64,000 nt of DNA from Boletus sp. NGJ (lineage: Eukaryota; Basidiomycota; Agaricomycetes; Boletales; Boletaceae), in assembly GCA_019096195.1 (NCBI GenBank), contig JAGTXK010000039.1, forward strand, positions 166,641 to 230,640. The letters are read 5' to 3'. This document shows positions 1,449-64,000 of this stretch, in pieces. The position numbers and the translations under genes were made by a program. Each line of letters starts with the position of its first letter. The stretch's first letter is position 1. The notes beneath the pieces were generated by a model. It was not told the DNA's origin. It was given only the letters and a program-made list of their open reading frames with translations, and searched no databases.

Positions 1449-3782
1449 ATGGCTGCAGCGGCTGTATCGCTCGCCTGTCCACTTCGCCGCTCGACCCGGC
1501 TCGCCCACGCCCACTCTCACCCGCCCACCCGCCAGCACCACAGACTCAAGTCCCACCACCCACGCCATCCACCCAGACCCACCCCAGACCCTGAGCCTGA
1601 CCAGGACTCCTCCTCCTCCGACCCCGAGAACGAGCTCACCCCCCGCGCCCTCCGCGCCCTCAAGCGTCAGCGACTCGCCCTCGACCCCGATGGCCTCCCC
1701 TTTTCTACCTGCTCCCGCCCGAAGAAGCGGCGGAAGCATCCCATACCCCTTCCCCCAAAGGTCAGTCGTCTGTCCACACCACACCACCACCTCACACCAC
1801 CACCTCCCCAGCGCCTATGTTCCCCATCTTTGACGCCCATCCATTCCCAGACCATCGACGGGTAAGCCCACCCTCTCCGCTTGAATCCCCTCTCACTCGT
1901 GCCCACAGCCCGCACAGTACCGCCACCGCCAACCCAACGTCGCTTCTAGCAGACGAGAATCCCCCCTCGTCGCTCGTCGCCCCTCTGACCACGCTTCATA
2001 ATGGGCCGTCGATACCTCTTCACGATATACGCTCGGCTGCATCCAAACCCGAGCTTTCGATACCCCTCCCCCCGCCTTCCGCAGAGCCATCGCACCCCAT
2101 AGCGACACCCTCTAATCCCTCTTCGCCCGAGCCACTCACACCCCTCACACCCCTGACCCCTTCTCCCGAATCATCCCCATCTCTCCCCGGCCACGACCGA
2201 CAACTCCTCCCGCTCTCCCCCCCGCACGATCCTCTCCCCCCTCCAGTATCTCTAGACACCCTCCAGATTCCAGATTCCACCCCATCTGCCTCGGGCACAC
2301 TCACTACGGATTCTTTTACGCCCCCTCCATTATCTACGCCCCCCATATCGCTAAATCCCACGCTCGATACCCTTATCCCATTCGAGGGCCTTCATCCGCC
2401 ATTTGACCCCGAGTTATCGGTACAACCATCAACGCCACCCCAATTACAAGGTTTAGAGCTTCAAGACCAATTTCATTCATTTCCACCACCCCAGCTTTAT
2501 GTACCTCCAAATCCTGTGTTTGTCCGTGATCGAGAAATCAATATATGGAAACTGGCTTGTCAAGAGCGGGTAGATTATTTGTGCGTCCGCTTCTTTTCGC
2601 CTCCTTTCTCGCTACTCCCCATTCCCCTTTGATCCGCTTTGCGTATATATTTAGATGATGTCATTTGCTAACTTGCCTCTCAGATTACGCCGCTATGGGA
2701 TCGATTATATCAAGGCACTCGTCGAATCAGAAGCCCGCTCACAATCAACGTCATCCTCATCAACACCACAGACCAAATTCCGTCTCTATACCCCCGCCAG
2801 CTACACCTATTCATCCTCCTCCTGGGGGTCCACCTCTGGTCCCCGCAAGGCATTCCCCGTCGATGAAGAGGGCGACGATCCGGATCCAGCTTGGCCCATG
2901 GATGATGCCGATTGGGTCGATGCCGATGTCGACATGGAAGACGAGGACGAGGACGACTATGATGACGAGGACGATGCTGTGGACGGTGAGGCAGAGCGCG
3001 AAGGCGAGGCGACCCTGGAAGCTGTGCAGGGACTGGTCATTGCAGATGCTCCAAGCCAGCGTGACGCTGCGGTTGCCATGCAGGTCGACGACGCGGTCGA
3101 GGTGATGCAGGTGGATAGCCCAAGTCTGGACGGGCGGTTGGCGACAAAGGCACCTGTCAGCTCCGAGCCACAGGTCCCGCTACGTCCAGCATCCTCCGCG
3201 GCTGACCCGTCCCTACGTCCCTTGTCGCCTGTCCCCCATCCATACCCGTCGTCTCCACCTGTGACGCCACCCAGTCTTCCACCTCTTTCATCATTGCATG
3301 TCCCTCTACTATCCGAACCGCCCCGTGCTTTCATGGGCCGCGGGACTCCACCAGACCGGCAACGACTGATCGAGTGGAGTGGCTCTGGACGTTTTGCGAC
3401 AAACGGCATGGGACCACCGCTCTACCTCTCGCCCGTCCCCCAACGCCACGCCAGCACCGACGTGGGCATTGTTCCCATGTCCGTCGACGCGCCCATACAT
3501 CCCTCGCCACCTCACCCCCAGCACGGCGAGTGGACGTCGTTTTTGTACTCGATGCTCGAAGGGGACGGTGTCGGTGTGGGCACGGGCGTGGGCAATGCCT
3601 CGCATGCTTCCGAACCGACGTGGTACGAGCTTGGTTTGGAATCCGTCCCTACGGTCGTCACGGGGAACGCGCCGGAGCTCCCACTCTCTCACCCACACAC
3701 GCACGGGCGGATGCCGGTCGTGGAGCAGGCCGTCGAGGAAGGGAACAACAGCTCGAGCACGTTGCGATTTGCATTGGGTTAA
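1449..3782 (+). CDS. Disordered Pro/Ser-rich protein with acidic segment, unknown function
   Basis: Four exons fit without frame conflict: 1449-1760, an 11-nt micro-exon 1851-1861, 1909-2580 and 2684-3782. The total is 2094 nt, giving 697 aa. The first exon carries a basic patch ending RPKKRRKHP, a plausible nuclear localisation signal. The middle is very rich in Pro and Ser. The exon 3/4 junction gives a short ordered-looking segment around VDYLLRRYGIDYIKALVE, the only part likely to fold. A strongly acidic Asp/Glu run follows at about residues 420-460, then another Pro/Ser region. I recognise no domain. The composition resembles a nuclear scaffold or transcription-associated disordered protein, but this is inference. 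The micro-exon is the least certain part of the model. Confidence 0.6.
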
Positions 3783-4524
3783 GTTCCGCTCCCAGGTTAG
3801 GGTCATGGTATTTATAGAGCTATTATATCATGGATCTCGTCACCTTGTTTCTCTTCTTCGTCATCTGCCCTCACTACAGCTCTTCCGCTTGCCCCTCTGC
3901 CCTCTCATTGCTTGTGCTTTGCTCTGCTCTGCGCCTGCTCGTGCTCATGTGTCGTCGCTGGTCGTCGCTTCCGCTCTCCTGGTGAGCCTTATATCATCGC
4001 GGTCATATACCTCCATATCCATCTCGCTCCCCTCATCATCGTCGCACATATCACTGTGTTTTTGGAATTATAGTTTTCACATGCCATCGCCCATTCTCTC
4101 CTTTGGTATTAATGACACCTCCCTTGATTCGACGTCCGGAATCAACTCCATCACAACTACTCGTGTAGCAATAGGATTAAAACGCCGACGACGGTTGTTT
4201 TTTCTCTTTACCTTTTGGTATCCCATTTCCATGCTATTCTTTCTCAGACGTTTCGTGGGATTGGGTCGTGGGTTACGGTTCGAACCATTTTTTTCTACTG
4301 GATGTTTTTCATCCCTTTCCACTCGAACCTATAGGATAAAAGTCTGTTCTCCTTGTTGCCATCTCCGTATTCCCTCGCACATTCCCCTCTGGTCTGTATA
4401 CCTCTTTTTTTTTCGCCACGAAATGGAATGTTTTTCCCATTCTTTTTTCTTCTGTAAACATGTAAAGAGCACCTTGAGGGTTTGGTGGTGGTACCCCCAT
4501 AATATACATTCTATAGCTGCCACT
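3783..4524. other. Convergent 3' intergenic region
   Basis: This lies between the stop at 3782 (plus) and the stop at 4525 (minus). It is pyrimidine-rich with no supported gene, and presumably holds both 3' UTRs. Confidence 0.5.
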
Positions 4525-7500
4525 TCACGCCCCGATATGAATGAACACGATCCGCTGATCGATAGGGACGACGTCCTTGTCGACCGACTTGGACGCCCTG
4601 TTAAGCGCCCGCGCGGCCTGCGTACAGTCCAACTCGGCCCCGGGAGGAAACAAGTGCGAGTAAAACGCCCTCACCATGTGATGTGCCACCGCGTCGTCCA
4701 CGGCCCACATCGTCCCGATGACGCTCCGGAACCCGGCGAATTGGGTCGCGGCGGCGAGAGAGAGGATTTCGTCTGGGGCGTTGTGATCGCCGACAGCTGT
4801 GTGGCATGCGGAAAGGAATGCGAATTCGCCTGCCACGTTCGTGCCCGTGCTCGTGCCTGCACCTACACCCACGCCCACGCCCGTACCGACGCTGCGGACG
4901 ACATCGAGCACCGTCACCGCCCGATCTCGCAACGCAAACGCAGAGTCAAACGGCTGTACGACATCAGGATGACCATGACACGCGAGATGGGCCCACGCGT
5001 GCGTACCGAGCGCGGTGAGCGCTGCGTCAGCTGTGCTAGCGTCCCCCGAGAGTGCGAAAAAGGGCATCGTGCGCGGGAGGAGGGAGTGGACGAGGACGAG
5101 TTCAGAGTCGATGGTGAGGAGGGTGGGGGAGGTGGAGGTGGGTTTGGCTTGGCCGATCGCGATGAAGGCGGGTGGGGCCGAGGGTGAGGTCGAGGTCGAT
5201 GGTCGATGACGTGCACGGATGAGCGCAGCTAGCGTTGGGGTGTACGAGGAGACGTACATGTTTGGGAGGTTGAGCGCGCCTGTGCGGTACGGCCCTGCCG
5301 CGTGCAGTGGGAGCGACGTCAGCTTCGAGGTGGGACACCACCAGATCCGTGCGCCGCGCGGTAGGAACGTGGTCAGCTCGTCGACGATCGGGCGGACGAG
5401 CGAGTCCCAGAGGGCGCGCAGGACCACCACGACCTGTCTCTCACGCGTCTTTTCCTCGCCGACTCGCGTCGTCGACTTTAGCATCCGATAAAACTCGGCG
5501 GAGAGCGTCGTCAGGTCTTTGAGCGTCGTGGAGGGGAGGGGGACGTGTCGCGGCGGAGCGTCGTGCAGGACGATGAGGGCGTCGCATCGCTGACGGTTGA
5601 TGTTGACGAGGATCACGGGTCCGCCGAGCGCAGCACGCTGCAAGCCCTGGAACGAGGGACGGTCCAGGAAGGACTGGAATCCCTCCTGTTGGCGGATGCG
5701 TGCGACGATGTCCTCTAATTCTTTGGACGACTGTCGGTATTGGCGCGTCGCTTTTTCTGTCGTCAACCGCGACGCCGTCAAGGCTGGCTGCGCAACGGTG
5801 CTCTGCGCTAGCTGAGCGCTCACCCGTTCAAAGTCGGACGCCAACGCGCATCCTGCGTCGCCGGTGGAACGCAGGGCGTCGAGGGGCGTGCGGCTCTGTG
5901 ACATTTGCGACCACAACAACCCGCGTCCTTGCTCCGAGAGTTCGACCGCCAACTCCAGCTCGCCCTGCGCGATCGCACAGGCCGTGGCGTCCGTCGCCAG
6001 GGGGCTAGTGCGTATGTCCCAGCGTTTGTCCAAGAGGGCAGCGTGTCGACTTTTGATGGACGCGGTCGTGAGCAGGTGTTGGTTGAGAGAGGCAAGGGCG
6101 GTCTGATAGGCGAGCAGTGCAGACGAGTGACGTCGCTTCTCAGCGTGTTCGACCCACTCGAGTGCCGCAGCAACGCTCGTGTAACTGTCCATGTGGGTGT
6201 ACGGCGCAGCTTGTTCGTAATACCGGAAGCCGTCCTCCATAAAGCAGGAGGCTTGCAGCTGCGAAAGCTCGTATATGGACATGGACAACTTCGCAGCTTT
6301 GAAACACATGTCGTGGAACACCGGGCTGTCTTTTGAGAGTGTCTGCATGGTACGTTGGAGAAGGTTGACCGCGGCGTAAAGGTCCTTGATATTGCCACGG
6401 AGTTCTGCCCGTACGCGTAGCGCTTCCGCAAGATCTACGCATGTCAGTGGTTGATCATAGAACGAGGCTGGAAAATGGGCGAGAGCTTCTGTGAAGAAGA
6501 CGATGGCGGCGTCGAGGCGTTGGAGACGATCGTGGTGACGTCCAAGCTTGACCAACGCATTGCCATGGTGTCGGCACAAGGTCCCTCGAAAGAGGTGCTT
6601 GGGTGGCATTTGTTCCGCAGCAACACCAAAGAGCTCGACACATCGTTCCAGGTCCGCCAAATCCTCTCGTTCGGTGTAACGGACGGACAATAACGTGGCG
6701 AGGGCGAATGGAACAAGGAATTCCTCATTGACGGCGGGGAGTGTGAGCGCACGAGTGACGCGCTCGATCGCCACATCCAAGTCACCCCCGCTCCTTTGGA
6801 CTTGGAATCGCGCGAAGAGTGCACTGCCCAAGTTGACCAAGGACGCCTTGTAATCAGAGTGTCCGGGCGTAGGGGACAAAATTTCCTCCGCTTCGGTCAA
6901 GAGTACGATCGCTTCGTCCAGCGCGTCACCGGAATCCTGGTGATACTCGAAGCGCTCGCGCAGCGCGTTCCCGAGTTGATTGCAAACAGGGACGTAGTTA
7001 AAGTTACCACGTGTGCAGCTACGCTGGGCGACGCGATAAAACGCAATGGATTCGTCGAGGTCCTTTGGATCCGCACTAAGCTTGAAGCGCGCGGCGAGGG
7101 CGTTGCCAAACTGTAGGTGGGCAGGCACGTACTCTGCACGGCCTTTGGGGAGCGTTGGGACGATTTCGCGGAATACAGCGATGGAGATGTCGATATCTGT
7201 CTCCTCTCGTCCATGCTGGAACTTTTGGAGGAACGCCTTGGCGCGATTGATCTTTAAGGCCACGAAGGCTGGCTCTGCTGGTCGCGTGGAAACCAAAGCA
7301 CGATCGCAGTGATCGATGATGGTCTGACATTCCTCGATGTTTCCGGACCTATAGAAGCAATCCAACAGAGTCGACGTCAGGTTTGCTACCGTTAACGGAT
7401 AATTCGGCTCCTCTGGAGACGAAAGGGCCAACGCATCCTTGCACGTCGAGGCGGCGAAACTGAGATCTTGCATGTCACCCTTGACATTGAACGACGCAGC

Positions 7501-54424: not shown

Positions 54425-57357
54425 ATGCCGCCTTTTGATGACTGGAACGTGGTTGATGACGAAGAAGAAGAAGAACTGCAAGATACTTCAGTCAGTCTGC
54501 GTTGTCTTGTCCGGTCTACCGAGTAACCCCTATTTTATAGTTCTTCGAAGGGAAACGAGATGTGATTCTATTTTGCATCGACTGTTCCGAGTCTATGCAC
54601 GAGCTCCGAGATGATCCCGTGTACGAAAACGTGCAGACTTCTCACCTCCTCGCAGCCCTCGACGCCGCTATGCAAATCCAGAAGAAGAAGGTTATTGTTG
54701 GTCCAAACGACTCTGTTGGAATATTACTTTTCAATACGGTGAGATTGTGTTGACGTCGTTTCTGACAAGATGCTCAATGATGTGGGTTTTAACCCAGACG
54801 CGACCCAACGAGGTCAAGGGCTATGCCTCTGAGATTAAGAAAAACACCTTCGTCTATCAGCAAATTACGCCTATAAGTGCACCGACGATACAGGAACTCA
54901 TTCGCTTGATTGATGGTATATACGGTCTCCTTTGATAATGTCAAATTGTTGAATGATTTGTTTTCAAGAGGCCAGAGAGGACCCGGATCTACTCCGAAAC
55001 ACCTTCCCCCCTATTCAAGGAAAAAAGATGTCCATGGGTGATGTGTTCACTAGCTGTAACTGGGTCATGCGCGATGGGTTGAGTAGCTTTCGAGTTTCGC
55101 GACGGGATGCCTGACTAACTGCTTTCCAGTGCACCCAAGACGGCATCAAAGCGCGTGTTCTTGATTACGGACGATGACAATCCGCATCCGAATAGCAAGC
55201 AGCTGCTCACGTCCTCCAAGACAACTCTCATCGTTTGTCGCTCGTGGATACGGTTTGCAGGGTCATCTGACTGCGTTGACAGGACCTTACCCAAGCCGGG
55301 GTGCAAATAGAGCCGTTTTTTATCTCCACGCCAGAAAAGCCGTTTGATCCAACAAAGTTTTATTCCGTCCGTTTTGAATCCTTCCACTGGAGTCCGTGTG
55401 ACTGAACTTTGAAACATGACAGTCTGTCTTGCCGTCGAATTCTCTTGATGTAGACGAGGATGAGGAAGATTCGGGGATGCTCCCAACATCTATCTCAATC
55501 ACTAAGATTGATGACCTCCTTTCCCAAATGCGATTTCAAGAAGTCCCGAAGCGCGCCCTATTTAGCATTCCATTTGAACTCGGCAAAGAGTTTGTCATCG
55601 GTGTAAAAGGGTACGTTTCTCACCTACTCCTTGCAACGCCGACAGTGCCTCAGCGCCTGCCAGTTATGGTTTAATCACTGAGCAAGAGAAAGGCGCATAT
55701 AAGTACTTTATTGACCTTGGAAACCGAATGGAGGTCGCAAATAGCCGAACGGTGTACCTTGACGAGGTTCTCTTTCATATTCTGTGGCCATACAACTTGT
55801 TTTCTGACCTCTCACGCTCTCATAGGATCAACAAGTAGAAGTAGACCGTCCAAAGATAGTATTTGGTGGGAAGTTGAGCACTGGTACGGCAGGCATGGGT
55901 GACGAAAATGAGGAACTGAGCATGTCGGTGACGAGGGCGGTGAAATCTGATTACAGAGTAAAGTAGCCTCGCGTTTTGGCTGCACATGACGTGCTGAATG
56001 ATTGTCCGCACAGCCGTTTTATACCGCGGATGAGATTCGGTCTTTCCGTACTTCCAACCTCGAGCCTGGTGATGCCTACTCTAACCTTTATTGTATCAAA
56101 AGCTCACAATCTCACCCTTCCAGGTCTCAAGCTTCTTGGCTTCAAAAACAAGAATCAGATTGCATTCGAGGACAATGTCAAACATGCCCTATTCATTTAT
56201 CCAGACGAGCTGGTGAATGGTTTAACGCTGCGTGCATCATTTCTTGTCTAAGTCTCTTGTTCTAGAAATATTCTGGGAGTAAACGCACGTTTAGCGCTCT
56301 TCTGCAGAAGATGCTAGAGAAGAACAAGATTGGATTGGCCCTCGCCTTAGTCCGTCGCAATGCTACCCCTGCTTTCTGCGCCCTCGTACCACAGGTGGAT
56401 GATCTTTAGTTGCTCTCTAGATCGCTCACCTCGAAGTATATTTGTAGGCAGAAACAGTGGAAGAAGGCGGATGGAGTGAACCTGCCGGATTCCATCTCAT
56501 CTTTATCCCTTTTGCTGACGACATCCGCGCTGCACCAATCACCGAAGCATTCAGAGGCACGTCAGCCCATTCTCTGGATCCTGCTTGCTCACGTATCTCG
56601 GTATTAGCTGCGGAAGAAGTCAAGGATGCTGCGAGAGCTTGGATTGACAAGTTGTGTGTCAAGAACGGTGCATATCCTCCAGACTCGTATCCGAACCCTG
56701 GTGTGTTTGCGTCACCTCGTTCATGTTTGTCGCTCCTTCAATCAGTCTTTTAGCGCTCGCATACCATAATGCCCAACTTCAGGCAAGCGCTTTCCGTGAA
56801 GAATTTGATACGGAAGCGTTCGAAGATCTGACCCGACCCAAATACGATAAGATGCATGAGGTTTGGCAATCTCTGTTACACCCCGCGAAGTTAATGAACG
56901 TGTTACATAGCGGGCGGGGGCACTGCTCAAGGAATGGAAAAAAGTGTTGACAAGCGACGAGAATTACAACACCGTCATTGCGACGACGGGTACGAAGAGA
57001 AAGCCTGTTCGTCGCCAAACTCACATCATGTCTGTTAGCTAACGACAAGGAACTTTCTTTTCTTAGGACATCTCAGTTGATGAAGCGGACCTTCGGAGTA
57101 AGTACGCGGCAGGAATGCTAGACAAAGTGAGCCGACTCATCCAAGTTCTTGGTGGGATTCTAATTCAAAGCGATCATGATCGTATAGCTTCGGGTCGATC
57201 AACTCAGGGTACGTTTTTCCCCGCATAGCCGAAGCGCGTGCCTGTCTCTGCTCACTCTGAGACACTGCAGGAGGTGCTCAAAAATAAAGGTTTACCAACG
57301 GCAGGGAGGAAAGCCGAGCTCATCGAGCGCGTGGCCGAGTGGTTGGACAAGTACTAA
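54425..57357 (+). CDS. KU70: Ku70 DNA end-binding subunit
   Basis: Subunit of the Ku heterodimer that binds double-strand ends for non-homologous end joining and also protects telomeres. About thirteen exons. It starts MPPFDDWNVVDDEEEEELQD (acidic, as usual). The vWA-like domain follows: KRDVILFCIDCSESMHEL, VGILLFNT, PIQGKKMSMGDVFTSCNWV, KRVFLITDDDNPH. Then comes the Ku core: VPKRALFSIPFELGKEFVIG, GLITEQEKGAYKYFID, LKLLGFKNKNQIAFEDNVK, and LALVRRNATPAFCALVPQ just before HLIFIPFADDIR. A C-terminal SAP DNA-binding motif is rebuilt over two introns: LRVDQLR/EVLKNKGLPTAGRKAE, ending LIERVAEWLDKY. It looks complete. It is the last host gene before the telomere-associated DNA. Confidence 0.93.
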
Positions 57358-58785: not shown

Positions 58786-58980
58786 GAGGGGGATAGGGAG
58801 CCGAGCCGAGCCGCGAAGCGGCGAGGCGAGGCGTTACCGGCGGTAAGGCGATAACGCTGTTGCCTCGGCAAGGGATTACCTTTTTGGGTCGCACTAGAGA
58901 TATTGTCTACCGGTCGTGTAACCAATTCGCCGGCGGTGTCTAGCCTTAGCTACCACCCTAGTGCTTATCTACACTAAAGG

Positions 58981-59015
58981 CCCGATCATGGGTTTCGACC
59001 TTTTGGTCTCATCAG
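58981..59015 (-). ncRNA. Hammerhead-like core, incomplete
   Basis: On the minus strand CTGATGA (59015-59009) is followed by a perfect 4-bp stem II (GACC, loop AAAA, GGTC) and GAAA (58996-58993). A short CCC/GGG stem III with loop ATGATC can form. The expected U-H cleavage step and the matching stem I strand are not convincing, so this is either a degenerate ribozyme or chance. Confidence 0.3.
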
Positions 59016-59331
59016 TAGGGGCGCACACCCCTAAACCCACACCACCTTAGGACATACTAACCGGCTTATGTACACCTCACCATGATTTTGTATTGTCCTG
59101 GGCAGACTGGCTCATGAAATTTCCTTTTCAGGACTTATGACCGCCATACTAAGGAATTTCTCCCACGCAGTCGCTTTCAGACCCCGCAATCACGTGTCAT
59201 TGGTGCGCCGTGCCGGGTGTTAACCGGCCGCGTTATACCCGGTGAACGCTTAGTCAGCCGCAGGCCCCGCGGCTCGTTAGTTAACCGGTCACGTGACGTT
59301 GGAAATCGACCACGATCGCTACACTAGTAGG

Positions 59332-59337
59332 TTAGGG
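59332..59337 (+). repeat. Telomeric TTAGGG junction (A/B)
   Basis: A single TTAGGG followed by extra G at the boundary between units A and B. Confidence 0.5.
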
Positions 59338-59345
59338 GGGAGCGA

Positions 59346-59368
59346 GCACTCGAGCGAAGCGAGAGTGC
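59346..59368 (-). other. Terminal hairpin, unit B
   Basis: A 6-bp stem, GCACTC (59346-59351) with GAGTGC (59363-59368), closes an 11-base loop GAGCGAAGCGA. Compared with unit D, the loop is unchanged while both stem strands differ together. Confidence 0.65.
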
Positions 59369-59393
59369 GAGCGGGGATAGTGTGGGATGGGGG

Positions 59394-59468
59394 GCCAGAT
59401 AGGTAATAGGCTGAGGGCGACCAGCTCTCAACCACCTATTTCGTCCGGGGACTCATCAGACCTCTGGC
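59394..59468 (-). ncRNA. Type I hammerhead ribozyme, unit B
   Basis: Minus-strand order: GCCAG-A-GGU (stem I 3' strand), CUGAUGA (59459-59453), GUCC-CC-GGAC (stem II), GAAA (59442-59439), then stem III UAGGU / GCCUA. An upper helix UGAG/CUCA closes the loop AGCUGGUCGCC. Next come UU, the predicted cleavage point between 59405 and 59404, and ACC-UAU-CUGGC (stem I 5' strand). All invariant core bases are present and stem I pairs 3+5 bp around an internal loop. Self-cleavage is predicted, not shown. Confidence 0.8.
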
Positions 59469-59818
59469 GGAATAGTGAAAAGAATTTCTTGGTACTCACG
59501 CTGTATTTATAGGGAGAGTACCGCGCACGGACCATCAGTGAAACGTGTGAATAGCGGAGATAGACGCAGCGGAAATTAAACCGGATCTTGCCGGTTGTCA
59601 CTCGGATCTTTCCGGTTGCGCTTCTGCGTGAGAATTCTCTCACGGCTCGCGGTAATTAAATTTGCCGAAGCCGGGTGGCGCAGTAGCCGAGTCGGGCCGG
59701 TCGGGTATCGGTCCGATGCTTTCTTTCGGTTATCTCCGGGATCGGTCTAGACCACTTACGTAATTTATTCTCACCCCTTGCCGGGGGTGTGCCACCGTTA
59801 GGTTCCTAAGTTAACCGG

Positions 59819-59830
59819 TTAGGGTTAGGG
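59819..59830 (+). repeat. Telomeric tract, 2 x TTAGGG
   Basis: Two exact TTAGGG copies at the B/C boundary. Confidence 0.8.
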
Positions 59831-60372
59831 AGCCGAGCCGAGCCGCGAAGCGAAGCGAGGCGAGTGCGTTACCGGCGGATAGTGTGCGATAACGCGGGGG
59901 CCTCGGCATAGGGATTACGCTGAGGGCGTCCAGCACTCAGACCACCTATTGTCGTACCGGTCGAGTACTCAATTCAGACCTCTGGCGGAATAGTGCTAAG
60001 CATTTCTTGAGCTACGTCACCCTAGTGTTTATCGGGACACGAATCGCGCCCGGTCCATCGGTCTCGACACTGTGGGTCTCAGGCGGAGATAGGGGCGCAG
60101 CGGACCCCTAAACCCGACTCCTGCCGGTTAGGTCACTCGGATCTTTCCGGTTGCGCTTCTGCGTGAGCATTCTCTCACGGCATGCGGTTATTGTATTGTC
60201 CTGGGCCGGCTGGCGCATGATAGCCGAGTCGGGCCGTTTCAGGTCTCTCGGTCCGCTGCATTCTCCGGGATCGGTCTAGACCACTTACGCAGTCGCTATT
60301 CTCACCCCTTGCAATCGGGCGTGTGCCACCGTTAGGTGCGCTCAGTTAGCCGGTTTAGGGTTAGGGTTAGGG
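59831..60372 (-). repeat. Subtelomeric unit C, mosaic of A-like and B-like sequence
   Basis: Starts AGCCGAGCCGAGCCGCGAAG like an internal point of unit A. It carries B-like tracts (GACCTCTGGCGGAATAGTG, CTCGGATCTTTCCGGTTGCG) alternating with A-like tracts (CACCCTAGTG, TTGTATTGTCCTGGGC, CACGCAGTCGCT...). The hammerhead position is defective: minus-strand CTGAATTGAG replaces CTGATGAG and GACAA replaces GAAA, although the CTGAG/CTCAG upper stem III helix survives. Ends with three TTAGGG. Confidence 0.65.
60355..60372 (+). repeat. Telomeric tract, 3 x TTAGGG
   Basis: Three exact TTAGGG copies at the C/D boundary, followed by extra G and the hairpin of unit D. Confidence 0.85.
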
Positions 60373-60380
60373 GGGCGCGA

Positions 60381-60405
60381 GCACAGCGAGCGAAGCGAGC
60401 TGTGC
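60381..60405 (-). other. Terminal hairpin, unit D
   Basis: A 7-bp stem, GCACAGC (60381-60387) with GCTGTGC (60399-60405), and loop GAGCGAAGCGA identical to unit B. Confidence 0.65.
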
Positions 60406-60428
60406 GAGGGGGATAGGAGTGGGATGGT

Positions 60429-60505
60429 GCCAGATAGGTAATAGGCGATGGGGCGACCGCTTCCATTGCCACCTATTTCGTCCGGGGACTCATCAGACCT
60501 CTGGC
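60429..60505 (-). ncRNA. Type I hammerhead ribozyme, unit D
   Basis: The same fold as in unit B: stem I GCCAG-A-GGU / ACC-UAU-CUGGC, CUGAUGA, GUCC-CC-GGAC, GAAA and stem III base UAGGUG/CGCCUA. The upper helix here is AUGG/CCAU instead of UGAG/CUCA, so three pairs have changed with pairing kept. The loop keeps GGUCGCC. Predicted cleavage lies between 60440 and 60439. Confidence 0.8.
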
Positions 60506-60852
60506 GAATAGAGAAAAGTATTTCATAACTCTTACCTGTATTTATACAAGAAAGAGTCGCGCACGGACCATTAATATAACGTGGGAGAGCGGAGATAGAC
60601 GCAGCGGAAATTAAAGCCGGATCTTGCCGGTAACACTCGGATCTTTCCGGTTGCGCTTCTGCGTGAGAATTCTCTCACGGCTGACGGTAATTAAATTGCC
60701 GAGCCGGGTGTCGCAGTAACCGAGTCGGGCCGTTCGGGTCTTCGGTCCGATGCTTCTTTCGGCTATCTCCGGGATCAGTCTAGACCACTTACGTAATATT
60801 ATCTCACCCCTTGCCGGGGGTGTGCCACCGTTAGGTTCTCTAAGTTAACCGG

Positions 60853-60886
60853 TTAGGGTTAGGGTTAGGGTTAGCACGTTAGGGTT
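60853..60886 (+). repeat. Telomeric tract and degenerate telomeric repeats
   Basis: Three exact TTAGGG copies, then TTAGCACG, then TTAGGG and TTAGCGG. This is the junction between unit D and the 3' region of the reverse transcriptase element. Confidence 0.85.
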
Positions 60887-61643: not shown

Positions 61644-63986
61644 TCAAGGCTTTGAGACTCGTAAAAGCGTCTCTGCCATCTGGTCAGCAGTGTCCTCCAC
61701 AAACATGGGAGAAGCAGATCGCCGTTGTACAGAATGGTCGGCGTCCTCTAGATCAATCACTTTTCCTGATTGTAGACGCCGCCACCTTGCTGGTAGAACG
61801 GGTTCAGGGGGACCGGTGTGACCAGGTTGGTCACCGGGATGGATGGAATCCGTTTCCCCGGTCTCTTTATCTGCTATCCTTTCCAACACTATCTTTTTCC
61901 AAAGACTGGTTAGATCGAATAATTGCGTGGTGCGTTTCCGCGACACGATAATTCGACGGTCTAGGATATCCGTCTTCCGGAGGTCTGGGACCTCAGTCGG
62001 TGTACCATCCGCACGCACAGACTCTATTAAGAGCCGGGGTTTCCGGTCCACGTCATCCGTATAGCCTACAGGCTCCGGGGGGAATTCAATGTTGAATTCC
62101 ATACGCTCGGCTTTATAAAGCCAAGTTCGCATATATCCTAGGATAGTGTCTCCTAATTTAGTGACGGAGAAAAGATCCCATGCTGTGTTGTACTCGGTTT
62201 TGAGCACCAGGACTGCGCTTGCCGCCGCAGTGTCGGTTTTTGTCGTTAGGCGATCTCGCCATCTTTCCTGGAGTTTATTGCGTCTCCAGTACAACAACAG
62301 CGACTCGTCGTATCCACGCGACGTATAGATGGTTACCAACCAATCTATCGCATCCAGATAGTTTTCGTATGTACTACTGAGCGTGGCGAGTCGACTCATC
62401 TCACCGTAGAACGTACCTCGTTTGACGTCTATCGGGTGAGCTGAGACATAGGGTATTCTCTGGTGGAGCGATTTGGCCTTCTGGTAAGGTCTATGCTGCA
62501 GTTTACCTCTATGATCTTTATAGAGCAGCATATCCAGGAAAGGCTGGGCATTGCCCACGTCCCACGTTATAACACAGTGGTCGATTACCACATTTTCGCG
62601 CATAATGGCTAGCGCTTCCTGAGGGCTACTAGCGTACACTATACCGAGGCAATCGTCGATATATCGGCCGTAATAGGCCACACGGGGGTGATTTAATATA
62701 CCGTCACGTTTCTCGCAGAACCACCCATACAAATTGGCGAGGTCCGGGGAGTCTGCAACGCCCATTGCTAGGCCGTTTAGTTGCTGGTATATTTGCCCGT
62801 CGAACTGTGTTAACAACTCCGTGTTACCAACCCTGAGACAGTCGTTAAAGAACATAACGAAGGTCTGAATTGACAGCCCGTTCCAGTGCTCATTTTCGTC
62901 CCCTTCATTCGCATAGATCCATTCGACAAACATGCCAAAGATTCTATCCAAGCATAATTCCAAAGGAATGTTGGGGTAATAAGCTACAACGTCACCTGTG
63001 ACGATGTAAAACTGGGCACCCGGGATCAGGTGGAGTTGACTCAATTTTATCGCTAAGTCTTTGCTGCCATGGATGACAGTCAGCGCCTCTGCAACTAGAG
63101 GTTTGAGCATTTTGCTACAGAATTTTGCAGCCGGATTTTGGATCGCGCTGTGGCAGGGTAAGATAGGCCTGAATTTGACCGGTAGTTTATGGATCTTTGG
63201 GATTCCATAAAAGCGCGGAATATGGTGGTCTGCCGTAGGGGCGGTAACAAGACTCTTTAAATACTCGTCTATAGAACCATATTTCCAACAGTAGATATCC
63301 GACCGCTGAGAGAGGAGGATCATCTCGGTACATTTCTTATCGAGGATCCGTTTCGCATCAGCGTTGTCGAGGCGTTTGTATTCGCGCTCGTTGGACAAAC
63401 ATGCGGTGGTGTTTTCTATTATCCAGGTCCGCTCTGACACCGCTAGGCCGAGATTCTTGTCGGTCGGCGTTACAACATAGTCGTTGTCGATCATGAATTT
63501 GCGCAACTCGTTTACCTTAGGACCGAGCGGTTTAAATGTGTCGTCACTAAGGCCATCAAGTGGGGCATTGGCAGTGACGTTGTGGACGTATGCACGCCCT
63601 CGCTTGAGAGCGAGTTCGCAATAAAACGGTAATACGGGTGGGTCCGCCTTACTGGGGGGCTTCACGTCGTAGTCTGGATCGTAGGTTTCGTTATTTTCTC
63701 CCTCTAACGTAAACTTAATCTTCCACCTCAGGCGTCTTACGAAGTCGAGGTAGGCGTCAGTAATCAGCTGCGTCTGACGGGGTTGATGAAACATATGTTT
63801 CATACCAATCCCAAGATCGTGCTCCAATTCCCGCGGGATGGAGACTCCTGGGCCAGTGTGGATTCGTGATCTAAATCGGCCGGCCTCTATAAACTTAAGA
63901 GGTGTATGTCTGATCACGGCTTCAATGGCCTGCGTTGGGTGGGCGTTGTCTATTATCTCGTCGGGGAGTGTCCAATAATGAGACAT
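61644..63986 (-). CDS. Penelope-like reverse transcriptase, endonuclease-lacking
   Basis: 780 codons. Penelope-type RT landmarks in order: TPTDKNLGLAV (residues 173-183), HIPRFYGIPKIHK (255-267) and KFRPILPCHSAIQNPAAK (271-288). The first catalytic Asp is D332 in TGDVVAYYPNIP. Then come GLAMGVADSPDLANLYG (405-421), catalytic YIDD at 442-445 in YYGRYIDDCLGIV, QPFLDMLLY (481-489) and the thumb motif HPIDVKRGTFYGEMSR (517-532). The catalytic triad is intact and there are no internal stops, so it may be active or recent. The C-terminal part is basic, then Pro-rich, with no GIY-YIG endonuclease. That points to the Athena/Coprina class, which uses chromosome ends as primers. The frame stays open from the ATG at 63986 to the right edge of the window, so the true start may lie outside. 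Weak homology to telomerase RT is a known property of this family. Confidence 0.88.
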   Translation of the reverse strand: MSHYWTLPDEIIDNAHPTQAIEAVIRHTPLKFIEAGRFRSRIHTGPGVSIPRELEHDLGIGMKHMFHQPRQTQLITDAYLDFVRRLRWKIKFTLEGENNETYDPDYDVKPPSKADPPVLPFYCELALKRGRAYVHNVTANAPLDGLSDDTFKPLGPKVNELRKFMIDNDYVVTPTDKNLGLAVSERTWIIENTTACLSNEREYKRLDNADAKRILDKKCTEMILLSQRSDIYCWKYGSIDEYLKSLVTAPTADHHIPRFYGIPKIHKLPVKFRPILPCHSAIQNPAAKFCSKMLKPLVAEALTVIHGSKDLAIKLSQLHLIPGAQFYIVTGDVVAYYPNIPLELCLDRIFGMFVEWIYANEGDENEHWNGLSIQTFVMFFNDCLRVGNTELLTQFDGQIYQQLNGLAMGVADSPDLANLYGWFCEKRDGILNHPRVAYYGRYIDDCLGIVYASSPQEALAIMRENVVIDHCVITWDVGNAQPFLDMLLYKDHRGKLQHRPYQKAKSLHQRIPYVSAHPIDVKRGTFYGEMSRLATLSSTYENYLDAIDWLVTIYTSRGYDESLLLYWRRNKLQERWRDRLTTKTDTAAASAVLVLKTEYNTAWDLFSVTKLGDTILGYMRTWLYKAERMEFNIEFPPEPVGYTDDVDRKPRLLIESVRADGTPTEVPDLRKTDILDRRIIVSRKRTTQLFDLTSLWKKIVLERIADKETGETDSIHPGDQPGHTGPPEPVLPARWRRLQSGKVIDLEDADHSVQRRSASPMFVEDTADQMAETLLRVSKP

Positions 63987-64000
63987 CCTAGGGCATGCTA

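Follow-up and report, generated by a model that had tools for sequence, protein, structure and literature searches.

Type I Hammerhead Motifs in the Probable Pseudo-Long Terminal Repeats of a Telomere-Attached Penelope-Like Retroelement of Boletus sp. NGJ

Results

The window analyzed here is a stretch of 64,000 nucleotides from the fungus Boletus sp. NGJ (assembly GCA_019096195.1, contig JAGTXK010000039.1, forward-strand positions 166,641 to 230,640), which forms the terminal part of contig C118 in a 32.8-Mb assembly and ends in an array of units joined by telomeric repeats. Two of these units, B (59338..59816) and D (60373..60850), both on the minus strand, carry type I hammerhead motifs and are most likely the pseudo-long terminal repeats (pLTRs) of a Penelope-like retroelement that is attached to telomeres and probably lacks an endonuclease (EN), like Coprina or the Terminons. 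A long host protein finds its closest named relatives among boletes (Imleria badia, 66%; Boletus, 61-63%), with other relatives reaching 79%, in keeping with a host that is probably a bolete-like basidiomycete. A reverse transcriptase (RT) open reading frame (ORF), recognized by tblastn and fold comparison and cut at the contig end, lies on the minus strand at 61644..63998. It is separated from unit D by telomeric TTAGGG repeats at 60851..60884, and further plus-strand repeats mark the junctions of unit D with unit C (60355..60372), of unit C with the solo pLTR unit B (59817..59830), and of unit B with unit A (59330..59337). The TTAGGG strand reads rightward at all four tracts, which places the chromosome end to the right of the array and, together with the minus-strand RT ORF, means that the element's sense strand is the minus strand.

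The two motifs were found by model match and descriptor scan at 59395..59468 (B) and 60430..60505 (D) on the minus strand. Both consist of the core CTGATGA, stem II, GAAA, stem III, and the site ATT^ACC, with a stem I of 3+5 bp containing a 2-nt bulge, and the first bases past the predicted cleavage sites, 59404 and 60439, are separated by 1035 nt, as the first-pass annotation of this DNA had described. That annotation had also called three compensatory pair changes in the upper stem III, and these are real: numbered from the loop, three pairs are changed on both sides between unit B (UGAG/CUCA) and unit D (AUGG/CCAU), with small indels beyond the helix. The descriptor was written from rules common to hammerheads (a core, three stems, and an NUH site), with minimum stem lengths chosen after the motifs had been seen; it found three cores in the window, all on the minus strand (60496 and 59459 of type I, 59015 of type III), and none in 150 dinucleotide-shuffled windows. 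B and D each have the universal core, three stems, an NUH cleavage site, and an open stem I, the features that place a motif in type I. In the Rfam covariance search that the annotation had offered as a check, no model matched anywhere in the window at gathering scores, and at a lax threshold RF00008 matched D and B at 18-21 bits (21.2 bits, E 0.26, and 18.3 bits, E 1.7, respectively), spanning only about half of each motif. The Rfam cut-off is not treated here as defining membership of the hammerhead class. Lax matches to TB9Cs1H1 and Vax2os1_3 in the window were judged to be chance. The type III motif, at 58987..59041 on the minus strand, is absent from the first-pass annotation and outscores B and D against RF00008 (43 bits, E 1.7e-7, cut-off 48.5).

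The assignment of B and D to an element draws on a copy elsewhere in the genome. The copy in stretch L038 (contig C46) begins with CCCTAA repeats and a B-like unit with a hammerhead at 2038-2111, continues with an open frame at 2075-5902, and closes with a 3' untranslated region (UTR), CCCTAA repeats at ~6655-6695, a second B-like unit (hammerhead 7041-7114), and again CCCTAA. The start of the open frame overlaps the pLTR repeat, and the first ATG past the pLTR, at ~2218, is out of frame. The two B-like units agree at 479 of 485 columns and place a hammerhead on either side of the ORF, and therefore B and D are taken to be pLTRs of a Penelope-like element. Unit D, bounded by telomeric repeats directly 3' of the window's RT element, has the layout of the L038 pLTRs, and unit B, likewise bounded, is 99% identical to the stretch of contig C46 in which the 5' pLTR lies (L006). 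In element sense, the full layout is (CCCTAA)n, ~370 nt, TATAAATA, the hammerhead, a covarying GC hairpin, CCCCCCTAA, the telomerase-like RT ORF, the 3' UTR, (CCCTAA)n, a second like pLTR, and CCCTAA. In 36 of 38 copies, the TATA box TATAAATA precedes the hammerhead by 43-47 nt; in the window, a TATAAATAC box can be read upstream of hammerhead D at 60538..60546 and of hammerhead B at 59503..59511, both on the minus strand.

Copies were counted in 21 sources, the window and 20 stretches fetched from the same genome. For the RT, 22 tblastn pieces merged into 12 copies, with a 27-residue piece on contig C108 excluded. In all 12, a type I hammerhead lies 3' of the ORF at a distance of 1138-1195 nt, and telomeric repeats in G-strand orientation separate the ORF from that 3' pLTR. 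Hence the earlier proposal of type I hammerheads within telomere-associated retroelement units is borne out, with the units now specified as Penelope-like pLTRs. A same-strand type I match also lies on the 5' side of six of the 12 copies, within 1.5 kb in three, of which only that of L038 is intact. On contig C107, one RT copy breaks off at its 5' end within the pLTR hairpin, where telomeric repeats cap it, as would be expected from 5' truncation followed by telomere healing.

A search with the window's RT protein recovered 370 relatives, Lentinula edodes appearing among the 120 listed, and none was found in viral contigs. An alignment of the window protein with 39 of the 120 listed relatives was compared with Pfam, which barely detects proteins of this type: RVT_1 was the sole family matched, by 13 of the 40 proteins, with no match to a GIY-YIG endonuclease in any of them, and Pfam found no RT domain in the window or L038 protein. 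The RT profile matched a single sequence in the PDB (E 0.72). An AlphaFold model (predicted local distance difference test score, pLDDT, 76.5; residues 684-780 of low confidence) retrieved telomerase RTs at Foldseek ranks 1-12 and in VIA rows 1-12, with low template modeling (TM) scores over the whole model; past the twelfth row, viral polymerases, a group II intron RT, and more telomerases were intermixed. As modeled, this telomerase-like RT fits that of a Penelope-like element.

A type I search model built from 10 variants found 42 places in the 21 sources, 39 of them at E<1e-14. Of these strong copies, 36 retain the core and stems, in nine variants, with CUGAUGA and GAAA in the core as well as the cleavage triplet preserved; the remaining three comprise two decayed copies on contig C10 and one altered copy on C63. 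Exact copies of the main variants (12, 8, 5, and 5 of them) stand at separate loci. Among 32 distinct units, the hammerhead without its upper stem III is 99% identical, the upper stem III 64%, the 200 nt upstream 70%, and the 60 nt downstream 75%. Copies for this comparison were picked by both motif ends, and one of 38 lacked 200 nt upstream; blocks in the middle of the motif are also 97-98% identical. In stretch L042 on contig C10, the RT pieces contain stops and the hammerhead copies are changed mostly C-to-T and G-to-A, a pattern in the sequence that looks like decay by repeat-induced point mutation or methylation. Separately, pLTR-like matches (79%) occur on contigs C81 (~1.701 Mb) and C122 (~312.8 kb), each with a weak RF00008 score of 25.6 bits.

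Every pLTR also has a hairpin between the hammerhead and CCCTAA, at 60381..60405 in unit D (GCACAGC/GCUGUGC) and 59346..59368 in unit B (GCACUC/GAGUGC), both on the minus strand and identified by hairpin comparison. The stems differ among copies as matched pairs, with GCUGC/GCAGC and CACUUUUGC/GCAAAAGUG as further versions, and the loop is the same in most. When arms were swapped, the matched arms paired better (P 5e-5 for 13 distinct hairpins, 1e-4 for 10 after collapsing), two of 38 copies having been dropped for want of a hairpin centre. As in the stem III tests below, the swaps permute arms among distinct sequences with kinship uncorrected, and few independent stem changes lie beneath the P values. 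Poorly pairing hairpins occur as single copies in L034, L040, and L044, and as two on C10 that fell outside the test. This hairpin covaries more clearly than stem III.

The arrays hold a second hammerhead family. Unit A (58794..59329, minus strand, read from sequence), which bears the type III motif, is shorter than the ~932-bp unit of L036, and the type III core pattern occurs at 20 places in the 21 sources, one of them within a mosaic unit. A search of the genome with RF00008 gave at least 13 matches, of which 10 scored 43 bits and none exceeded the cut-off; among 14 control genomes, three gave weak matches and none a match above the cut-off. Tandem type III units of ~932 bp with a single CCCTAA between them were observed on contig C107 (L035:9600-10000 and L036:1-3400) and are a candidate non-autonomous telomeric element.

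Unit C (59831..60354, minus strand) is a fine mosaic of pLTR and type III unit, with 61 switches per 295 informative steps, and contains a broken type I hammerhead at 59907..59986 (minus strand, 13 bits). Short-run alternation of the same two unit types, judged by eye, was seen at L036:3569-3612 and L043:6986-7067. These blends are perhaps consensus artefacts of repeat assembly or products of template switching.

As to the setting of the arrays, 10 of the 15 hammerhead-bearing contigs have theirs within ~10 kb of a contig end, and arrays lie further inward on C20, C107, C8, C10, and C114. RT elements or units stand head to head in L040/L041 (contig C50, 376-387 kb), L031-L034 (C20), and L039 (C8), some deep in contigs, and these arrays may have arisen by telomere fusion or by fold-back errors of the assembly. 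A search pattern made of five perfect TTAGGG repeats matched at one place in the assembly, contig C107 ~495981-496078 (7 overlapping matches), 23 kb in from the contig end; a reversed-pattern control gave 20 matches. In the window, the subtelomeric array is adjoined by a multi-exon gene at 54426-57357, whose product we take to resemble Ku70.

Discussion

For its propagation, the element would be transcribed from a pLTR promoter that, judging from the TATA box, may start the RNA ~15 nt before the hammerhead. If the transcript extends through the next pLTR as far as its CCCUAA tail, it would carry a hammerhead, hairpin, and CCCUAA at both ends. The CCCUAA could then pair with the TTAGGG overhang of a chromosome and prime reverse transcription, as proposed for Terminons, so that the newly attached element would have its 3' end facing the interior of the chromosome, in keeping with the orientation and repeats observed. 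The hammerhead may trim leaders and cut read-through transcripts of the arrays into RNAs starting ACCUAUCUGG-hairpin-CCCUAA. The first-pass annotation had suggested that an array transcript would release a defined RNA between cleavage points 1035 nt apart, an idea that finds no support, as the interval contains the mosaic unit C and successive type I sites in L038 are 1008, 559, and 5003 nt apart, the last spacing being that of its RT copy. A type I cut would sever the tail from the rest of the RNA on its 5' side, and therefore the template would be either uncut or primed internally; our guess is that an alternative fold keeps the RNA uncut. It is possible, if rather unlikely, that the whole works as one system, in which both RNA ends carry a hammerhead, a covarying hairpin, and a CCCUAA primer site, a switch between the active and alternative folds decides whether the tail is retained, and the type III family is a non-autonomous parasite of the same arrays.

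The evidence from stem III bears on whether the hammerhead fold is the one that matters. Because the MAFFT alignment of the hammerheads misplaced stem III, this stem was judged on anchored arms, and the model built on that alignment suits copy finding rather than covariation. The upper stem III arms vary jointly, and matched arms formed better duplexes than swapped ones (P 0.008, 8 pairs; six of 15 distinct sequences were dropped, four without anchors and two unsplit by the cutting rule, along with one arm-sharer). With the hammerhead fold enforced, the same swap gave P = 0.09 (9 variants, six of 15 sequences lying outside the hammerhead frame), and with folding left free, it gave P 0.001 for the same nine. 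The lower free-fold value arises because the upper helix also belongs to an alternative fold, where a UAGGU/ACCUA pairing forms and GG/CC prolongs the upper helix. This non-hammerhead fold is the predicted minimum for eight of the nine intact variants, and the enforced hammerhead fold lies 1.8-6.8 kcal/mol above the minimum. The earlier claim that the compensatory changes are direct evidence for selection acting on RNA structure is overstated: matched arms pair better, but the gain is clear only for the helix common to both folds. The covariation of stem III indicates that a hairpin is kept and by itself does not demonstrate ribozyme function. It could be argued from both the predicted minima and the greater cost of swapping in the free fold that the structure that matters is the alternative one, with its contiguous upper helix, for example in RT binding, and that the hammerhead core survives as a remnant of an ancestral ribozyme, either inactive or prevented from acting. 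We regard this as unlikely, since it would leave unexplained the retention of core and cleavage triplet in nearly all strong copies and the presence of a type III hammerhead alongside them in these arrays.

The place of the smaller units in the system can also be read in two ways. In the scheme proposed here, the solo pLTRs and type III units would be non-autonomous passengers of the same arrays. Alternatively, they could be independent retrozyme-like elements, spreading as circular or unit-length RNAs made by the hammerheads and reverse transcribed in trans, an arrangement suggested by the common 5' end of the B, D, and L038 pLTRs and by the tandem ~932-bp type III units in L035 and L036. The other type I units, however, are 5'-truncated at various points (in L038, ending near 600 and 1607), as plain truncation predicts, and recombination between two pLTRs also yields solo pLTRs, so that independent spread seems improbable to us. 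That the variation between copies stems from consensus errors in a repetitive assembly and not from evolution is very unlikely: unit C and the similar tracts in L036 and L043 resemble blends of two unit types and several arrays are head-to-head palindromes, but exact copies of the main variants turn up at separate loci and the stem changes are paired.

In this fungus, whose genome is small, natural variants of one ribozyme all adjoin the same telomere-pairing tail and are accompanied by a second structure that covaries strongly. This set allows testing whether the ribozyme, the hairpin, or both ready the RNA for priming at chromosome ends, a process close to that of telomerase.

Coprina elements were reportedly described by Gladyshev and Arkhipova in 2007 as telomere-associated, EN-deficient Penelope-like elements of fungi, and the element reported here, compared by description, appears to share with them a basidiomycete host, telomeric repeats, and the type of RT. 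Fungal Penelope-like elements are also said, in work by Cervera and De la Pena from 2014, to encode hammerhead variants that are stable as monomers.

Published accounts describe hammerheads in Penelope-like elements and telomeric Terminons (PMC6155905, PMC7761336, PMC6431247, PMC12477314), and one places hammerhead motifs in all available Penelope-like element sequences (PMC6155905). Their in vivo role in both groups has been termed a mystery (PMC7761336). Under the Terminon model, the ribozyme fold exposes adjacent telomere-complementary repeats (PMC6431247), and for a lizard Penelope-like element, initiation is internal and ribozyme mutants were without effect on insertion in vitro (PMC11167929). 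In the literature searched, which did not include the original key papers, no account of hammerheads in a telomeric Penelope-like element of a fungus came up, and we do not claim that none is in print. The pairing of hammerheads with Penelope-like elements is already known, and what is described here is a well-populated fungal member with many copies and a complete stem III; features new to us are that a type III family shares these arrays and that a covarying hairpin precedes the tail. As in other Penelope-like elements, the type I motifs lie in flanking repeats, but those hammerheads are minimal and usually lack helix III, whereas stem III is full here (PMC6155905, PMC7761336). The type III motifs find a basidiomycete counterpart in the five 55-nt Rfam Hammerhead_3 matches of Pleurotus ostreatus, for which the text consulted states no tie to retroelements, in contrast to the type III motifs here, which sit within retroelement arrays (PMC5040776). 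The Terminons and Athena elements of bdelloid rotifers, whose Penelope-like RT lacks an EN as is probable for the one here, are likewise attached to G-rich telomeric repeats, carry a 3'-end hammerhead close to telomeric repeats in reverse complement, and occur as 5'-truncated copies and in arrays (PMC6431247, PMC12477314, PMC7761336). They differ in that Terminons are giant multi-ORF units, whereas the L038 copy is ~5 kb with one ORF of at least 300 amino acids, and in that here ~60 nt with a covarying hairpin lie between a ribozyme with a complete stem III and CCCTAA, in arrays that also hold a second, type III hammerhead family.
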